Assembly (NCBI GenBank): GCA_002728135.1
Contig: PBVE01000002.1
Location: 122,755 to 186,754, forward strand
From: Rhodospirillaceae bacterium
GTDB taxonomy: Bacteria; Pseudomonadota; Alphaproteobacteria; UBA828
Reading direction: 5' to 3'
DNA: 64,000 nucleotides
Shown: positions 21,258 to 30,297 of the stretch, piece by piece
Numbering within the stretch: the first letter of the stretch is position 1
Layout of the letters: every line of letters begins with the position of its first letter
Position numbers and translations under genes: made by a program
Notes under the pieces: generated by a model
What the model was told of the DNA's origin: nothing
The model's input: the letters and a program-made list of their open reading frames with translations, nothing else
Database searches by the model: none

Positions 21258-21318
21258 AATCATTATTAAAATTACCCAATAAAGAGTTTTTATAAATAAT
21301 TTGTTAGGACAAGCTTGG

Positions 21319-21891
21319 ATGAAATGGATACGTGAATATAAAATGCCACAACCCAATCTATGTGACCAGCTTATTGAGGGTTTTAATGATGCTAAAAAAC
21401 TTGGTTTTGCTAGCCCTGGGCGAAGTGCAAGGGGTGTAGATAAAGATTGGAAGGATTCAGAGGACGTTACCTTCGCATGTTTACCCGTCAGTTCATATGC
21501 AAATACTGTTCAAGCCTATCGTGAGCATCTAATGAATTGCCTTCAAGAATACATAAAAGAGTTCCCTATACTTCAGAGTGCGACAGGCAAACTAGGATTT
21601 CTTGAACCACCACAAATTCAACGTTATTCCGCCGGTGCTGCTTTCTTTGGTGAACATTATGAAAGTAGTAGTAGGGATATTTCTCATAGGGCACTAGCTT
21701 TTATGACTTATTTAAATACGATAAAAAAAGGGGGCGGTACCAGATTTGTTTTTCAAGAATTTACCTGCAAACCAAGGAAGGGGAAAACTGTAATTTGGCC
21801 AGGCGGTTTCACTCACACCCACAGAGGGATTGTCGCACCAGATGATGCAAAATTTATAATTACAGGCTGGATAAATCACCTAGGTGATTAG
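21319..21891 (+). CDS. 2OG-Fe(II) dioxygenase, prolyl 4-hydroxylase-like
   Basis: A 190-residue protein using the ATG at 21319, which has AGGA nine to ten bases upstream; a TTG six codons earlier is open but poorly supported. The double-stranded beta-helix iron motif appears as His113-Tyr-Glu115 (GEHYES) with a distal histidine in FTHTHRG (His166 or His168). GGGTRFVFQEFTCKPRKGK between them is the P4H-type middle. HxE instead of the common HxD is notable but known in this superfamily. It would hydroxylate a protein or small molecule using 2-oxoglutarate and O2. The following gene is convergent. Confidence 0.75.
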   Translation: MKWIREYKMPQPNLCDQLIEGFNDAKKLGFASPGRSARGVDKDWKDSEDVTFACLPVSSYANTVQAYREHLMNCLQEYIKEFPILQSATGKLGFLEPPQIQRYSAGAAFFGEHYESSSRDISHRALAFMTYLNTIKKGGGTRFVFQEFTCKPRKGKTVIWPGGFTHTHRGIVAPDDAKFIITGWINHLGD

Positions 21892-22213: not shown

Positions 22214-23317
22214 TTAAAGTCTACTGCCTGAAGTAGGGTCGAAGTAATGGAGTGCACTAGTATCTATTGCTACGGAAATGGGTGTACCATCTTGATAGTC
22301 TCTCACACCCTCCACTGTAAACACTAAACTCTCGCCTCCGACTTCAATTCCTACAGTTGTATGCATTCCTAATGGCTCTAAATCATTTACAACTCCACTC
22401 ACTTTTGCATACCCAGCGGCAACACTATCGTCACCTTCGAGCAGAGTAATTGCAGTAGGACGCAAGCCTATTTCTACATCTTTTGTAGAAGGAACCTTTG
22501 TTTTATCAGAGTCAGTTAAATCTATTGAAGAACCTCCAATAATAAGTTTTGGGTCACCTGACTCACCAGAAATTTGGGCTGCAACAACATTCATGGCCGG
22601 GTTTCCTACAAACCTGGCAACTTCCTTAGAAGCTGGTTTGTCATACAACTCCTGTGCTGGTGCCATCTGTGCCACCTTACCATCCATTAGAACAACAACT
22701 TGGTCAGCAAGTGCCAAAGCTTCTGTGTAGTCTGGTGTAGCAAAGATGAATGTTCGCCCAAGCTCTTTCTGCAATCTTTTTAACTCTGTCCTAAGATCTA
22801 TGCGTAACATAAAGTCAAGACTACTAAGGGGTTCATCAAGTAGGTAAAAATGTGGTTCTCTAACCATTGCTCTACCTAAAGCAACACGCTGCTTTTCTCC
22901 TCCACTGAATGTTCCCGGAAGACGGTCAAGGATATGCTCAATTTTGAGTAACCCCGCTACCTCGTCAACCTTACTTTTAATCTGATCCTTAGGAGCCTTA
23001 GCAATCCGAAGTGGAGATGCAATATTTTCATATCCGTTCTTATTTGGGTACAAAGCAAGATTATCAAAAATCATTGCTATATCCCGTTGGTTAGGTTGCC
23101 ATTTTGTAACTTCGTCTCCATTGATCAGCACATCACCTGCATCAGGGTTTTCAAGGCCTGCTATACAACGTAACAATGTTGTTTTGCCAGCACCAGCTGG
23201 TCCAAGAAGCACAATAAGAGAACCTTTATCAACTTTGAGATCTATTGAATCCAGAGCCTGGAGATTACCAAATGCCTTAGATATTGAGCGAATTTCTAAT
23301 AGTGGGTCGGTCACCAT
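22214..23317 (-). CDS. ABC importer ATPase subunit with degenerate Q- and H-loops
   Basis: A 367-residue MalK/UgpC-type ATPase with the nucleotide-binding domain in about the first 235 residues and a C-terminal TOBE-like region. Walker A GPAGAGKTT (39-47), signature FSGGE (137-141) and Walker B LLDEP (Asp161, Glu162) are intact. The Q-loop Gln is Asp85 (MIFDN) and the switch His is Pro195 (ATPDYTEA), both key changes. Its own ATP-binding half is therefore probably poor at hydrolysis, while its signature is good. Stop and start of the two ATPase genes overlap (TAATG), with GGAGG before this ATG, so expression is coupled. It most likely forms a heterodimer with the upstream ATPase. Confidence 0.9.
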   Translation of the reverse strand: MVTDPLLEIRSISKAFGNLQALDSIDLKVDKGSLIVLLGPAGAGKTTLLRCIAGLENPDAGDVLINGDEVTKWQPNQRDIAMIFDNLALYPNKNGYENIASPLRIAKAPKDQIKSKVDEVAGLLKIEHILDRLPGTFSGGEKQRVALGRAMVREPHFYLLDEPLSSLDFMLRIDLRTELKRLQKELGRTFIFATPDYTEALALADQVVVLMDGKVAQMAPAQELYDKPASKEVARFVGNPAMNVVAAQISGESGDPKLIIGGSSIDLTDSDKTKVPSTKDVEIGLRPTAITLLEGDDSVAAGYAKVSGVVNDLEPLGMHTTVGIEVGGESLVFTVEGVRDYQDGTPISVAIDTSALHYFDPTSGSRL

Positions 23318-24420
23318 TAACCTCCATGTTTCATAAGGCGCATCCCAGAATCAGGGTCAAACAGCGCCAAGAGATCAAAATTGGGCATTAGATTTAATTT
23401 ATTACCATCAGTAGCACTCTCAGATTCTGAGGGAACGACAACTTTAACCTGTGTATCACCAAACTTTGCAGTAACTACAGACTCTGGCCCTTGAGGCTCT
23501 ACCGCCAAGACCTCTGCAGAAAAGGAAAAATCTTCTTCATTAGATGTAACTGTTAGAGTTTCCGGTCTGAATCCAGCAATGAGTCCAGAATTGTTTTCAA
23601 TTTTTGAGCCAATGTCTGTGGGCACAGGCAAACTAGAATCTCCATTCTGGATAAAGATTCTATCTCCCTCTTTTCGTAGTACACCCTTCACAAAATTCAT
23701 TGGGGGATTTCCGAGAAAACTACCTACGAATTTGTTTTGAGGATGCTGATATACATTTTCCGCTGTATCATACTGCATAAGGTGCCCAAAGTTCATTACG
23801 GCTATCCTATGAGCCAGAGACAGAGCTTCTATCTGGTCATGAGTCACATATATGACTGTCTGCCCAGTTTCTGCTTGGATACTCCTTAATTCCCGTCTCA
23901 TACGATTTCGGTCATCTGCCTCTAAGTTACTCAAAGGCTCGTCAAGCAACAAAATATCTGGGTTTGTTACTAGAGTACGACCAATTGCCACTCTCTGAAG
24001 TTCACTAGCACTCAATTCACTAGGTTTACGGTCAATTTTATCACTTAAACACATAAAATCTGCCACTCTAAGAACTTCACTAGCGATCTTATCTTTAGGC
24101 TCTTTTCTCACCCTTAAACCATAGGCAAGATTTTTCTCTACCGTCATATTTGTAAAAACCGCGTAGTCCTGAAAAACTAATCCGACATTACGCTTGCCCG
24201 ATGGAGTATTGATAACTGATTTACCGTCTATCAAAATATCTCCACTTGTTGGTTGTTCAAGTCCCACAATCATATTAAGTGTTGTAGACTTGCCGCATCC
24301 TGAAGGTCCCAGAAGAGCCATAGTCTCTCCTTGTTCAACACTTAAAGACAGGTCATCAACCGCCACAAGATCTCCATATTCCTTACGAAGATTAATGATT
24401 TCTAGCTTGATGTTAGACAT
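23317..24420 (-). CDS. ABC importer ATPase subunit with degenerate signature motif
   Basis: A 367-residue MalK-type ATPase. Walker A GPSGCGKST (38-46), Q-loop Gln84 (LVFQD), Walker B LLLDEP (Asp160, Glu161) and switch His194 (YVTHDQ) are canonical, but the signature reads LSASE (136-140) instead of LSGGQ. This complements the partner encoded next: together they would form one complete site and one degenerate site. A C-terminal TOBE-like domain follows from about residue 240. The start is seven bases behind the preceding permease stop. It energises import by the two permeases encoded upstream. Confidence 0.9.
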   Translation of the reverse strand: MSNIKLEIINLRKEYGDLVAVDDLSLSVEQGETMALLGPSGCGKSTTLNMIVGLEQPTSGDILIDGKSVINTPSGKRNVGLVFQDYAVFTNMTVEKNLAYGLRVRKEPKDKIASEVLRVADFMCLSDKIDRKPSELSASELQRVAIGRTLVTNPDILLLDEPLSNLEADDRNRMRRELRSIQAETGQTVIYVTHDQIEALSLAHRIAVMNFGHLMQYDTAENVYQHPQNKFVGSFLGNPPMNFVKGVLRKEGDRIFIQNGDSSLPVPTDIGSKIENNSGLIAGFRPETLTVTSNEEDFSFSAEVLAVEPQGPESVVTAKFGDTQVKVVVPSESESATDGNKLNLMPNFDLLALFDPDSGMRLMKHGG

Positions 24421-24427
24421 TCGTCAC

Positions 24428-25372
24428 TTACCTCTTGATAGCGCCCAACGTTAGACCTCTGACTAAATGTTTCTGAATCAAGAAACCAATAATCACTAAT
24501 GGTATAATTGATACAGTAGCGAGTGCTGCTTGCGCACCATACAGCAAGCCCTCTGTTGCAGAGAAATATTTTGCCATCTGAACTGGTATTGATGATACCT
24601 TGTTGTAAGTTAGCACTAATGCAAACAAGAACTCACTCCAGTTTAAAATAAAGATGAAAAGTGTGGTTGCTACCAATCCCCCCTTAATGAGCGGGATAGT
24701 AACAAATAAATGGGCTTTCCACCTCGACATACCATCCATCATTGCCGCCTCTTCAATTTCCTGCGGCAGATCGTCTATAAAACTTTTTAACATCCAAGTT
24801 GCAAATGGAACTGTGACAGCAGCATATACCAGAATCAGCCCCCAATATGTATCACTCGCACCCACATCACTAAACATTATGACAAAAGGTACAGCTATAG
24901 CTGCGGGGGGGAACATTCTAGCAGACAATATGAAAAATGGCGTAAAGTTTCCACCAAACCTATACCGTGCTATCGCAAGTGCTGCCATCAAACTTACTAT
25001 TATTGAAAGGGCAGTTCCACCAGAAGCAAGAATAAGTGATCCGTATATAGATTGCCAAGCTGATTTAGTTAAAAAGTCAGCAATAGCTCCTTGTGCACCA
25101 CCACCGCTGGACTCGTCTGACCTTTGCTTAAGATTTCCATCTTCATCGTATTGGTCCAATCCCCCACGATCCTCAAGAAGCACTTCCGGAGCTAGAACCG
25201 TAAGATAATTATCAATTGTAGGTTTTCCAGACACCCACACGGCTGGCACTTTTACCCACTCGTCAGATGGTTTGAAAGATGTTGACAACATCCACAAGAC
25301 AGGAAAAAGGGCAAAGATAAGGGCCAAAAGAAGCCCGATACCATTGTACCAAGTAAATTTTTGACCAGGCAT
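24428..25372 (-). CDS. ABC importer permease (MalG/UgpE-type)
   Basis: A 314-residue inner-membrane permease with about six helices. The cytoplasmic coupling (EAA) loop is visible as EIEEAAMMDGMSRWKAHLF followed by TIPLIKGG. The N-terminal WMLSTSFKPSDEW segment is typical of the MalG group. Between helices 1 and 2 it has a longer, acidic, Gly/Ser-containing periplasmic loop than usual (about residues 60-95). Its ATG follows the stop of the partner permease directly. It forms the transmembrane pore with that partner; the substrate is probably a carbohydrate, polyol or similar small solute (inference from family). Confidence 0.9.
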   Translation of the reverse strand: MPGQKFTWYNGIGLLLALIFALFPVLWMLSTSFKPSDEWVKVPAVWVSGKPTIDNYLTVLAPEVLLEDRGGLDQYDEDGNLKQRSDESSGGGAQGAIADFLTKSAWQSIYGSLILASGGTALSIIVSLMAALAIARYRFGGNFTPFFILSARMFPPAAIAVPFVIMFSDVGASDTYWGLILVYAAVTVPFATWMLKSFIDDLPQEIEEAAMMDGMSRWKAHLFVTIPLIKGGLVATTLFIFILNWSEFLFALVLTYNKVSSIPVQMAKYFSATEGLLYGAQAALATVSIIPLVIIGFLIQKHLVRGLTLGAIKR

Positions 25373-26359
25373 CTAACGGGCCTCCAATAGCTGATAACGT
25401 ATAGGCTTGAGCATCAAGTTTATTAATACAACAGTAATTATCAAAACTATAAATGCCGCTGCACCCGCATAAGCGATGCGGAAATCAAGAAAAGCTAGTT
25501 TATATAAATATACACTAATAGTTTCCGTTGATGTACCAGGTCCGCCTTTTGTGAGCAAAACAACTTCATCAAATAACTTGATAACTTCCATACCCCTAAT
25601 AACAAAAGCTATAATTATAACACCCTTCATATTCGGAAGCATAATTGTCCAAAATATCTTAGCATTACTAGCACCAAGTACAGTCGCAGCTCTCAAAGGG
25701 TTTGCTGGTATAGAATTAAGTCCCGACAGAAGTATCAAAAAGAACAACGGTGTCCAATGCCAAACCTCTGTTACAACAACAGCAAAGAAAGCAGGGGTCG
25801 CTGAATTCAGCCATTCAACACCGCCACTACCAGCAGCATCACCTGAGATCCAACCGATGACCTGATTGATTGGACCATTGTATTGGAAAAGCATATACCA
25901 AGTATATCCTACGACTACTGGCATAATCATCATGGGGGTTAGCAGTGCTGTAAAAAATATTCTTTTTCCATAAAATGACTTAAGGAAGATTGTAGCCATT
26001 CCTAAGCCAATTAAAAATTCCAAGCATAGAGAAAGCACTGAAATGGACAGAGTCCTACCCAGTGCACTGAGATATCTAGGCTCATCAGTAACCAAATAGT
26101 TATAATTGATGCCCTGGTAAATAGGTTCAGTAAATACTTGGCCGAGAGCCGTCCAGATATCCCCATATATTGGCTGCCATTCCGTCAAACTGACGAAGAA
26201 CTCCAACATAAAAGGAAAAACTAAAAGAACCAGTAACAAAATTTGAATCGGAGTTATTAACAGTGGCCCAATTAAAACTTTGCTGTTTGGATCAAAACGA
26301 CGGTACCTCCCCGGCTTTGAAGCCGGGGAAGTCCCGTTTGTTGTTTGGTAGGAAGACAT
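25373..26359 (-). CDS. ABC importer permease (MalF/UgpA-type)
   Basis: A 328-residue permease with about six helices. The coupling loop reads NPLRAATVLGASNAKIFWT followed by IMLPN, with a Gly in the usual position. MalF/UgpA character is shown by the LLVFPFMLEFFVSLTEW start and KGGPGTSTETISVYLY near residue 280. Codons 11-17 (SPASKPG) lie within a perfect GC-rich palindrome that is unusual for this genome (see separate entry). It sits 58 bases after the binding-protein gene and abuts the second permease. Confidence 0.9.
   Translation of the reverse strand: MSSYQTTNGTSPASKPGRYRRFDPNSKVLIGPLLITPIQILLLVLLVFPFMLEFFVSLTEWQPIYGDIWTALGQVFTEPIYQGINYNYLVTDEPRYLSALGRTLSISVLSLCLEFLIGLGMATIFLKSFYGKRIFFTALLTPMMIMPVVVGYTWYMLFQYNGPINQVIGWISGDAAGSGGVEWLNSATPAFFAVVVTEVWHWTPLFFLILLSGLNSIPANPLRAATVLGASNAKIFWTIMLPNMKGVIIIAFVIRGMEVIKLFDEVVLLTKGGPGTSTETISVYLYKLAFLDFRIAYAGAAAFIVLIITVVLINLMLKPIRYQLLEAR
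26308..26329. repeat. GC-rich perfect palindrome inside the permease start
   Basis: TCCCCGGCT (26308-26316), a TTGA loop and AGCCGGGGA (26321-26329) form a nine-base-pair hairpin in an otherwise AT-rich genome. On the coding strand it encodes the polar N-terminal tail of the permease before the first helix. The shape resembles palindromic ends of IS200/IS605-type elements or other intragenic palindromic repeats; no transposase is nearby. It could also slow ribosomes or mark an mRNA processing point between the abundant binding protein and the permeases. Confidence 0.6.
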
Positions 26360-26417: not shown

Positions 26418-28022
26418 TTAAGACCAATTCGCTACACCAGCAGCCTTTTGCATAGGCTCTGAGTACATCTTGGCCAAGTTATGCCATGCTTCCTTCTGCT
26501 TATCTTTGCCTAAGCGACGAGTGATCTTATTACACTCTTTAGCAGCGTCCTTCATGGCTTTTTCTGGTGTCTTTTGTCCTGTGTATGCTGCCGACAAATT
26601 TACATCAATAGCATTGTGATACTCAAAACCACCTCTTAAGATGATTTCTGGGCACACGTCTGTCACTGCCTCGTATGAAGTTTTGAGGAAGTCGCCAGGA
26701 TAAGCAGAGAAGAACTCAGCATTAGGCTCTAAGAAATGGTTATTACGCCATGGATCAAAGTAGCCACCCTCGTTTGGTATTGAACGCTGTGACATAGTTG
26801 GTCCACATAGCCACTGGGCATAGAGATAAGATGCTTCAGGAATTTCTGAGTGTGCACTCACTACAAAGTCCCATGCAAATGGCATAATATCAGCTCGGAC
26901 TAATTCTCCGTTAACAACGGTTCCAGGAACCTTGGATATACCCATAGCTGTTGGATTTCCTGTTGAATCACGCTCACCAATTACAGAAGCGGCACCAGCA
27001 ACGTCTGCTGAGTAGCGCCATAGTGATGGCCAACCAAATTCCATGAAACCACGACCCTGCTTATAGTATTGGGCGTAATTATCTGTAAATCCATAGTTGA
27101 AGTTTTCTATAGGAATATAATCTTGAAGAGCAACTAGTTCAGCTACAGTTTCAATACTTTCTGGACTATCTGCCATAGAGTTCATATCTTCATCAAAGTA
27201 AAGAACACCCTTTGATTGGAAACGAGTCATCCAATGGAATTTGTTCCAGAAAGGTGAGCGATACTCTAAAGCACCCCAGAAATCGTTAGCTTTATCAGTG
27301 TATTTTGCTGCTAACTCATCATATTTACCCCAAGTGTCAGCAAGAGATCTTGGTGAATCTATCTTGTCGCCCGCGGCAGCTAATTTATCTGCACGGTAGT
27401 TAAGAAGCCACCAGTCACCATCACAGTAAAGACCATATATCTTTCCGTTATACTTCTGACCAAAGTCAGAAACTGGATAAGATAGTCTATTTGGACCGTC
27501 CATAATTTCTGGGTTATGTTTTTCAAAATAATCGTCTAGTGGTAAGGCTAGACCAGATTCAGCATAATCTGGAAGACTTAAAGGAGCTGGCAACATAAGG
27601 TCATATCGACCAGTCTTCGCGACAGCCTCCTGCATGCCTTTTTGATGAGTCTCGGTCACAGGGACCTGGATTAACTCAACATCAAAACCTGTAAGAGCTT
27701 TCCACTCCTCAGTAAATGGAGCCATGTTACCACCTGATCCAGATGGGTGCATGATACTGATTGTTTTCTTAGATGCACTAGAGTAAAGGGCTTTAGCAGC
27801 TTTTACAGCTCTATCTTCAGCACTATGTCCATCTGCCCAAGCACGTTTTACTCCAAGAGGAGCATTTTTCATTATCATGCCTATTGCAGTAGCACTTAGT
27901 CCAAGCCCAAACATTCCTTTAATTAAATCACGTCTAGACACGTTATGTGTCTTTGACATATGCATGCCCCATAAGCGATAGAGCTCATTTAGTACACGCT
28001 TTCTCTCGTTTTCAACTGACAT
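26418..28022 (-). CDS. ABC importer solute-binding protein with Tat signal
   Basis: A 534-residue family 1 extracellular solute-binding protein. The N-terminus is long: a charged first 25 residues, then a twin-arginine motif SRRDLIKG and a hydrophobic stretch, so export by Tat is predicted. The start at 28022 is supported by AGGGAGG about ten bases upstream; internal ATGs at codons 20 and 22 would shorten the leader without losing the Tat motif. The mature part shows the usual binding-protein features and many Trp/Tyr residues suited to stacking on a sugar or polyol. It is the first gene of a six-gene importer operon, divergent from the UPF0261 gene. Confidence 0.9.
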   Translation of the reverse strand: MSVENERKRVLNELYRLWGMHMSKTHNVSRRDLIKGMFGLGLSATAIGMIMKNAPLGVKRAWADGHSAEDRAVKAAKALYSSASKKTISIMHPSGSGGNMAPFTEEWKALTGFDVELIQVPVTETHQKGMQEAVAKTGRYDLMLPAPLSLPDYAESGLALPLDDYFEKHNPEIMDGPNRLSYPVSDFGQKYNGKIYGLYCDGDWWLLNYRADKLAAAGDKIDSPRSLADTWGKYDELAAKYTDKANDFWGALEYRSPFWNKFHWMTRFQSKGVLYFDEDMNSMADSPESIETVAELVALQDYIPIENFNYGFTDNYAQYYKQGRGFMEFGWPSLWRYSADVAGAASVIGERDSTGNPTAMGISKVPGTVVNGELVRADIMPFAWDFVVSAHSEIPEASYLYAQWLCGPTMSQRSIPNEGGYFDPWRNNHFLEPNAEFFSAYPGDFLKTSYEAVTDVCPEIILRGGFEYHNAIDVNLSAAYTGQKTPEKAMKDAAKECNKITRRLGKDKQKEAWHNLAKMYSEPMQKAAGVANWS

Positions 28023-28247: not shown

Positions 28248-29474
28248 ATGGAAAAACAAAAAAACGCATACATAATAGGAACATTTGACACTAAATCCGA
28301 AGAATTATTATATATCACAGATTTATTGATCAAATGTGGAATAGAAACTACTCTCGTTGATGTTTCTACTTCTTCAGATTATCAACCAGAAACAAATATT
28401 ACTGTAAAACCCTCAGATATACTGCAATTTCACCCAAAAAAAGAAAATCTTGATGAGAATTCAAATGACAGAGGTGCTGCAATTGCAATTATGAAAGAAT
28501 CTTTGGTTAACTTTATTAGACAAACAGAAAATATTGATGGTGCCATTGGTGCAGGGGGAAGTGGCAACACAGATCTTGTTAGTGCGGCATTAAGAGAGCT
28601 ACCGATTGGGATACCTAAAGTTATTGTTTCTACTGTTGGGTCAGGGAATATTTCTCCGTATGTTGGCCCTAATGATATTTCAATGGTTTATTCAGTAACT
28701 GATGTAGCTGGCCTAAATTCTATTTCCCGCAAAGTACTTGGGAATGCCGCACATTCATTAGCAGGCATGATAGCTAATGATATTGTTATAAAAAAAGATA
28801 ATACCCCCGCCTTAGGTTTGACTATGTTTGGTGTGACAACACCATGCGTAGATACCTTAAGGGAAAAACTTTCTAAGACTTATGATTGTCTAGTATTTCA
28901 TGCAACAGGCGTTGGCGGCCAGTCCATGGAGAAACTGGCAGAATCTAATCTTCTAGTCGGTGCAATTGATGTAACTACTACCGAAGTTTGTGACTTAATA
29001 GCTGGTGGTGTATTCGCTGCTAATGAAGATAGATTCGAACGGCTAGCTAAATCGGGGCTTCCTTATGTAGGGTCTTGTGGTGCTCTAGACATGGTCAATT
29101 TTGGTGCAATAGAAACTGTTCCTGAACAATATATGAATCGAAACCTTTACGTTCATAATGCTAATGTCACCCTAATGAGAACCAATAACTCTGAATGTCA
29201 GAAAATTGGTGAATTCATTGCGAGAAAATTAAATCTTTTTCATGAACCGTTTAGTTTTCTATTTCCAGAGAAGGGCTTTTCACTTCTTGATGCTGAAGGG
29301 CAAAAATTCTACGACCCTGAAGCTAATAATACCCTACTTGAATCTCTATACGCTAATATCTTACCGACTCACCGACATAGAATAATTTCGTTACCTTTAC
29401 ACATAAACGATCCAGATTTTGCAGAAGCATTAATTGAATCATGGAAAAATATTGTTGGAGAAAAAAATGACTAA
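28248..29474 (+). CDS. UPF0261 / Tm-1-like ATP-binding domain protein
   Basis: A 408-residue protein matching the UPF0261 family: the N-terminal [17 protein letters not shown] motif, [19 protein letters not shown] near residue 100, IVSTVGSGN, and [14 protein letters not shown] in the second half. The fold is shared with the ATP-binding half of the plant Tm-1 resistance protein, and the bacterial role is unclear. Its stop overlaps the start of the PEP-hydrolase-like gene by eight bases, and the two are partners in many genomes and in fused Tm-1 proteins. Divergent from the ABC importer, so it may process the imported compound (inference). Confidence 0.85.
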
Positions 29475-30297
29475 ACTTTCAAGAATAGAGATTTTGGCTC
29501 AATTTAGAAAAATGATAAATGAACGACAACCAATAATTGGTGGAGGAGCTGGAACTGGGCTATCAGCTAAGTGTGAAGAAGAGGGCGGAATTGACCTAAT
29601 AGTTATTTATAACTCTGGAAGGTATAGAATGGCCGGAAGGGGTTCACTTGCTGGGCTATTAGCATATGGAAACGCAAATGAGATAGTTAAAGAAATGGCA
29701 TCTGAAGTTATTCCAGTTATTAAATCCACCCCTGTTCTTGCTGGAGTAAATGGAACTGATCCATTTATGATACCCAAATTGTTGATTCAAGAATTAAAAG
29801 AACTTGGATTCGCAGGGGTTCAAAACTTCCCAACCGTTGGACTTATTGATGGTACTTTTAGAACTAATCTTGAAGAAACAGGAATGGGTTATGACCTTGA
29901 AGTTGATTTCATTGCATTGGCTCACGATGAAGGAATGTTAACTACCCCATATGTTTTCAACACTAACGATGCCATAAAGATGACTAAAGCTGGCGCTGAC
30001 ATTATTGTTGCGCACATGGGGTTAACAACAAGTGGAAAAATTGGAGCACAAACATCTAGGTCATTAAAAGAATGTGTTAAACTCATTAATGAGTGGTCAA
30101 GTGCAGCTAAATCTATCAGAGATAACGTGATTGTACTTTGCCATGGCGGCCCAATAGCAACGCCAGAAGACGCAAATTTTATCTTAAAGAATTGTAAAAA
30201 TGTTCACGGATTTTATGGAGCGTCAAGTATGGAACGTCTGCCAACTGAAATTGCACTTACAAACCAAACTAGAGAATTTAAGAAAATTAAATTTTAG
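29467..30297 (+). CDS. Phosphoenolpyruvate hydrolase-like TIM-barrel protein
   Basis: A 276-residue protein starting at ATG 29467, with GGAG seven bases upstream, overlapping the previous gene by eight bases. It shows the family pattern [19 protein letters not shown] near residue 24, [16 protein letters not shown], the [10 protein letters not shown] loop, and a C-terminal [14 protein letters not shown] phosphate-binding-like segment. Relatives are annotated as PEP hydrolase or TIM-barrel signal proteins and form the C-terminal half of Tm-1-like fusions. A C-C bond lyase or hydrolase activity is plausible. It converges with the MIP18-family gene 55 bases away. Confidence 0.82.

Follow-up and report, generated by a model that had tools for sequence, protein, structure and literature searches.

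Two MalK-type ATPases with complementary degenerate motifs in the operon of a predicted type I ABC importer

Does the ABC importer encoded in the window (the whole stretch of 64,000 nucleotides analysed here) have two equal ATP sites, or one consensus and one degenerate site? The question is posed by a minus-strand operon of five genes (28022-22214) that encodes a solute-binding protein (SBP), two permeases (PM1 and PM2) and two ATPases (A1 and A2). A sequence-only reading had ascribed Gln84, His194 and the signature LSASE to the first ATPase; to the second it gave the signature FSGGE, but an Asp (Asp85) in the Q-loop and a Pro (Pro195) in place of the switch His. It had proposed a complementary split into one complete and one dead site. 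The open reading frames and the codon check agreed with this description of both ATPases.

The operon and the motifs of its two ATPases

The features on which the argument rests are as follows, in the direction of transcription.

26418..28022, minus strand: SBP, extracellular solute-binding protein (SBP_bac_1)
25373..26359, minus strand: PM1, UgpA/GlcT-like permease; EAA loop RAATVLGA, with Arg223
24428..25372, minus strand: PM2, MalG/UgpE-like permease; EAA loop EEAAMMDG, with Glu208
23317..24420, minus strand: A1, MalK/UgpC-type ATPase, 367 aa
24274..24276, minus strand: A1 Asn49, equivalent of MalK Arg47
24171-24169, minus strand: A1 Q84, canonical Q-loop Gln (codon verified)
24015-24001, minus strand: A1 signature LSASE, residues 136-140, degenerate (codons verified)
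23920..23931, minus strand: A1 D-loop SNLE, degenerate
23841-23839, minus strand: A1 H194, canonical switch His (codon verified)
23317, minus strand: stop/start overlap of A1 and A2, one shared base, TAATG
22214..23317, minus strand: A2, MalK/UgpC-type ATPase, 367 aa
23065-23063, minus strand: A2 D85, replacing the Q-loop Gln (codon verified)
22909-22895, minus strand: A2 signature FSGGE, residues 137-141, canonical (codons verified)
22735-22733, minus strand: A2 P195, replacing the switch His (codon verified)

Two BPD_transp_1 permeases and an SBP_bac_1 protein in one operon identify the system as a type I (CUT1-like) importer. The nearest families of PM1 are GlcT and UgpA and those of PM2 are GlcU, MalG and UgpE; SBP gave low-score matches, to general sugar-binding relatives only. 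UgpC is the top NCBIfam family for both ATPases (333.7 bits for A1 and 331.5 for A2, under the curated cut-off of 432), and the C-terminal domains, OB_MalK in A1 and TOBE_2 in A2, mark both as MalK-type nucleotide-binding domains (NBDs). The two are only about 36% identical to each other and have diverged with complementary motifs, so that the arrangement is not that of MalFGK2 proper with its single homodimeric ATPase. The AF2 model of A2 has an intact MalK fold (pLDDT 88). It is plausible that the TAATG overlap couples translation of A1 and A2 and would thereby give equal production of the two.

A1 has a canonical Walker A (GPSGCGKST) and an intact catalytic Walker B glutamate (E161, in DE161). 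The Walker A of A2 (GPAGAGKTT) was scored as canonical, its catalytic glutamate is likewise intact (E162, in DE162), its D-loop SSLD is canonical and it keeps an arginine (Arg50) at the position of MalK Arg47. In a head-to-tail dimer all departures from consensus map to one composite site, as the sequence-only reading had supposed. Site 1, in which the A1 core faces the signature and D-loop of A2, is complete. In site 2, where the A2 core faces the A1 signature, the Q-loop, the switch His, signature position 4 and the D-loop are altered. Two features go beyond that reading: the D-loops follow the same complementary rule (SNLE in A1, SSLD in A2), and the permeases are asymmetric in step with the ATPases. 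The confinement of non-consensus residues to one composite site is the pattern of a degenerate-site transporter, but loss of the Walker B catalytic glutamate, which is usual though not universal in such exporters, is not seen here. As the defects are complementary, neither homodimer would hold a complete site.

The surroundings of the operon differ by branch, with an oxygenase in nearer relatives versus an amidotransferase and amidase set in the rhizobial and Roseibium branch. In the window a 2OG-Fe(II) oxygenase gene (21301-21891), possibly linked to substrate metabolism, adjoins the operon, and such a gene also lies beside it in five other loci (L026, L027, L034, L035 and L038). Genes for UPF0261 and PEP_hydrolase-like proteins (window 28248-30297), divergent from SBP, are kept in L026 only. 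In the Bradyrhizobium/Roseibium branch (L045 9243-12872, L041 12034-15770) the importer lies by a class I glutamine amidotransferase, a glutamine synthetase-like protein, an amidase and a GntR-aminotransferase regulator, which suggests an amine-type substrate in that branch. Directly upstream of SBP, three loci (L030 2256-3089, L032 54-887 and L033) have an additional gene for a PM2-like permease, at about 48% identity.

Conservation of the paired changes

Orthologues were gathered from partly overlapping sets, a genome search and a species scan. Eight A1 orthologues (63-86%) came from genomes of the same family, the window's own being excluded. The species scan yielded 39 candidate loci, and these together with three plasmid records gave 32 loci with both ATPases, spanning Rhodobacterales, rhizobia, Desulfovibrionia and others. 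The A1 and A2 genes are adjacent, and in the tree each forms a clade with 100% support.

Among A1 orthologues the Q-loop Gln, the switch His and SNLE were each found in 33/33, and signature position 4 was Ser in 33/33 (LSASE, LGASE, LGGSE, LGGSQ, MGGSQ or LSGSE). All 34 A2 orthologues have Pro at the switch position, the signature [FM]SGGE and the D-loop SS[LV]D, with E162 and Walker A invariant. At the Q-loop 32 of them carry Asp and two carry Glu, counts to be read with the bias of a scan whose seed includes the Asp; the Glu variant was seen in Phaeobacter and Alisedimentitalea. Searches seeded with PM1, and so blind to the ATPase motifs (plasmids; 385 and 399 genomes), returned orthologues with degenerate pairs only. 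The alignment that the sequence-only reading had called for thus has the changes fixed together in pairs, in all 32 loci with both ATPases and with divergence down to about 45% identity, and canonical residues at these sites were found in none of the A1 or A2 orthologues examined. Being fixed in every one of these loci, the pattern is more than chance.

Relative to the closest relative dN/dS was about 0.03 for A1 and about 0.045 for A2, rough figures since dS is near saturation; judged by these ratios, both genes are under purifying selection. The switch His was lost in seven of the 62 further MalK-type ATPases sampled from related genomes, and all seven come from another two-ATPase operon class.

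Permease charge, predicted docking and the choice between mechanisms

In MalFGK2 structures MalK Arg47 contacts the glutamate of the permease EAA loop. Both sides of this contact are asymmetric in the present system: the EAA-loop Glu is replaced by Arg in PM1 (30/30 loci) and retained in PM2 (32/32), and the Arg47 position is occupied by Asn in A1 (32/33) and still by Arg in A2. Elsewhere, of 68 EAA-loop matches near R47-type ATPases 62 carry an acidic residue, and two apparently homodimeric Asn47 ATPases (L105 and L116, which are alike in sequence motifs) are accompanied by Lys in both permeases, with KAA replacing EAA. Where a paired system has a single Asn47 subunit, one of its permeases is non-acidic at the EAA position (R, K, T, M, Q or L), and the x/y pair (below), with two Arg, has two acidic permeases. 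The association of residue 47 with EAA charge gave a Fisher p of 0.0002, on rows that are not independent. The combinations PM1 Arg/A1 Asn and PM2 Glu/A2 Arg, together with this association elsewhere, lead us to predict that A1 is the docking partner of PM1 and A2 that of PM2. Counting against this, maltose uptake was little affected when one of the corresponding glutamates, E401 of MalF or E190 of MalG, was changed to alanine (PMC5730181).

From these residues we infer a MalFGK2-like, five-gene type I importer whose NBDs would form an obligate head-to-tail A1/A2 heterodimer. In site 1 the Walker A and B motifs, Q84 and H194 of A1, facing the signature and D-loop of A2, would hydrolyse ATP. 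Site 2 would combine Walker A and B, D85 and P195 of A2 with LSASE and SNLE of A1; it retains the ATP-binding residues and the catalytic Glu, and with three parts of the gamma-phosphate machinery lost it would bind ATP, mostly unhydrolysed, as a clamp. The charge swap at the coupling helices would set PM1 on A1 and PM2 on A2, and so couple one defined permease to the catalytic NBD. We regard this scheme of a hydrolytic site 1, a largely non-hydrolytic site 2 and fixed PM1-A1 and PM2-A2 docking as very probable, although Glu162 of A2 is intact and may allow site 2 a slow turnover of ATP.

That glutamate is also the basis for supposing that both sites hydrolyse ATP, with Glu162 still supporting turnover and D85 and P195 altering its rate or regulation. 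E162 and Walker A of A2 are indeed invariant, whereas typical degenerate exporter sites have a changed Walker B Glu (PMC7756269), and a Q-loop Glu is found in other MalK-type ATPases with intact His and signature. Against this stands the alteration of Q-loop, switch His and signature position 4 within one site in every orthologue, and we consider two hydrolytic sites unlikely. (The MalK-type ATPases with a Q-loop Glu, VFENY, and canonical signature and His were seen at L103, L108, L109, L118, L121, L125, L126 and L143.)

MalK-type ATPases are often homodimeric, and A2 is without two catalytic residues, so A1 might be the working homodimer and A2 a regulatory or decaying subunit. LSASE would then sit in both sites, however, and A2 is conserved, under apparent purifying selection and invariant in its signature, while PM2 retains the Glu that matches A2 Arg50; an A1 homodimer is accordingly very improbable. 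Few residues are involved, as would be expected had functionless drift in one lineage placed the changes in one site by chance, but they are fixed down to the identity levels given above, and complementarity recurs in the three further pairs described below, which leaves drift with hardly any credibility. The asymmetric heterodimer with one hydrolytic site is the reading we carry forward.

Related pairs and known systems

Three other pairs of MalK-type ATPases were found, and in all four (A1/A2, c1/c2, GlpS/GlpT and x/y) the defects of the two chains converge on one composite site. In the pair c1/c2, c1 is sister to A1 (99/92) and c2 more weakly sister to A2 (75/86); c1 has the signature LSVNE or LSVNI and Asn47, and c2 keeps the Q-loop and switch residues, has a GPPSCGKT-like Walker A and in two members has Asp for the catalytic Glu. 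GlpS and GlpT belong to the Rhizobium leguminosarum operon glpR-D-S-T-P-Q-U-V-K and its kin. GlpT has the signature LTADQ and Asn47 with Q-loop and switch His intact, GlpS has the signature LSGGQ, Thr at the switch position, Walker A GPTLSGKT and its Q-loop Gln, and the permease GlpP has Gln for the EAA Glu. The complementary motifs of this pair were read in the rhizobial glycerol operon at L090 5912-8071. In the last pair x has the signature LAEGE, and y has LSGGE with Pro at the switch position (ATPDQ) and Walker A GPSAAGKT; the two genes lie at opposite ends of their operon, flanking the binding protein and permeases (L157-L162, L164).

In the tree x falls among canonical ATPases (98/95), which suggested an independent origin of x/y; by the AU test, however, a single clade uniting A1, c1 and x is not rejected (p 0.09), and neither is a grouping of A2 with y (p 0.35). 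Two neighbouring ATPase open reading frames (L155 and L156; GPSGISKT with TFESY/ASGGQ in one and AFENY/LSGGQ in the other) are possibly another asymmetric pair.

We also considered whether the window system is itself a member of GlpSTPQUV. Like A1/A2, GlpSTPQ(U)V of R. leguminosarum (glpVSTPQ in Ruegeria pomeroyi) has two different, complementary MalK-type ATPases (PMC10130141, PMC7912956), and its glycerol role has been verified by mutants (PMC10130141). It differs in which residues are degenerate, the Q-loop Gln of GlpS being kept, and in an extra small membrane gene and flanking glpD/glpK. Membership was rejected: A1 groups with c1, A2 weakly with c2, GlpS and GlpT form separate deep clades, and the neighbours of the window operon are the oxygenase, UPF0261 and PEP_hydrolase-like genes and not glpD, glpK or glpU.

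MalFGK2 and UgpABCE share with the window system the domain layout (NBD with OB/TOBE), operon make-up and fold of CUT1-like importers, but have one homodimeric ATPase with two equal sites in place of two diverged ATPases and one charge-reversed EAA loop. The heterodimeric exporters TAP, TM287/288, TmrAB and BmrCD (PMC7756269) likewise pair a consensus with a degenerate composite site, with the signature defect in one subunit and the catalytic defect in the other. The window system in contrast is an importer with a binding protein and separate subunits, and its defects lie at Q-loop, switch His, signature and D-loop with the Walker B Glu kept, the residue that is changed in most degenerate exporter sites (PMC7756269). 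RbsA and NupO also are importers with one degenerate ATP site, but their NBDs are fused, belong to another importer class that is not MalK-type, and have lost the Walker A Lys or Walker B (PMC11466899). The earlier statement that such asymmetry is less known in MalK-type importers therefore stands in part: in a literature search limited to open-access papers, MalK-type pairs with complementary degenerate motifs were nowhere described, and RbsA/NupO (PMC11466899) and GlpS/GlpT qualify it. The principle of asymmetric sites is known, and what is apparently new, in that no description was found, is its systematic presence in separate-subunit MalK-type importers.

On balance we favour the view that MalK-type importers include a general class of asymmetric heterodimers, with at least four paired subfamilies whose defects lie in one site, at partly different residues and perhaps of independent origin, and in which an Arg47:Glu versus Asn47:Arg/Lys code would set the permease for the catalytic NBD. 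The EAA-loop charge rule would be a simple predictor of NBD-permease partners. Such importers would match TAP and TM287/288 on the import side, and with them the part played by a non-hydrolysing site may be tested apart from that played by the two coupling helices, in a binding-protein system. GlpS/GlpT of the known glycerol importer share the scheme, which brings a genetic test within reach in tractable laboratory bacteria.
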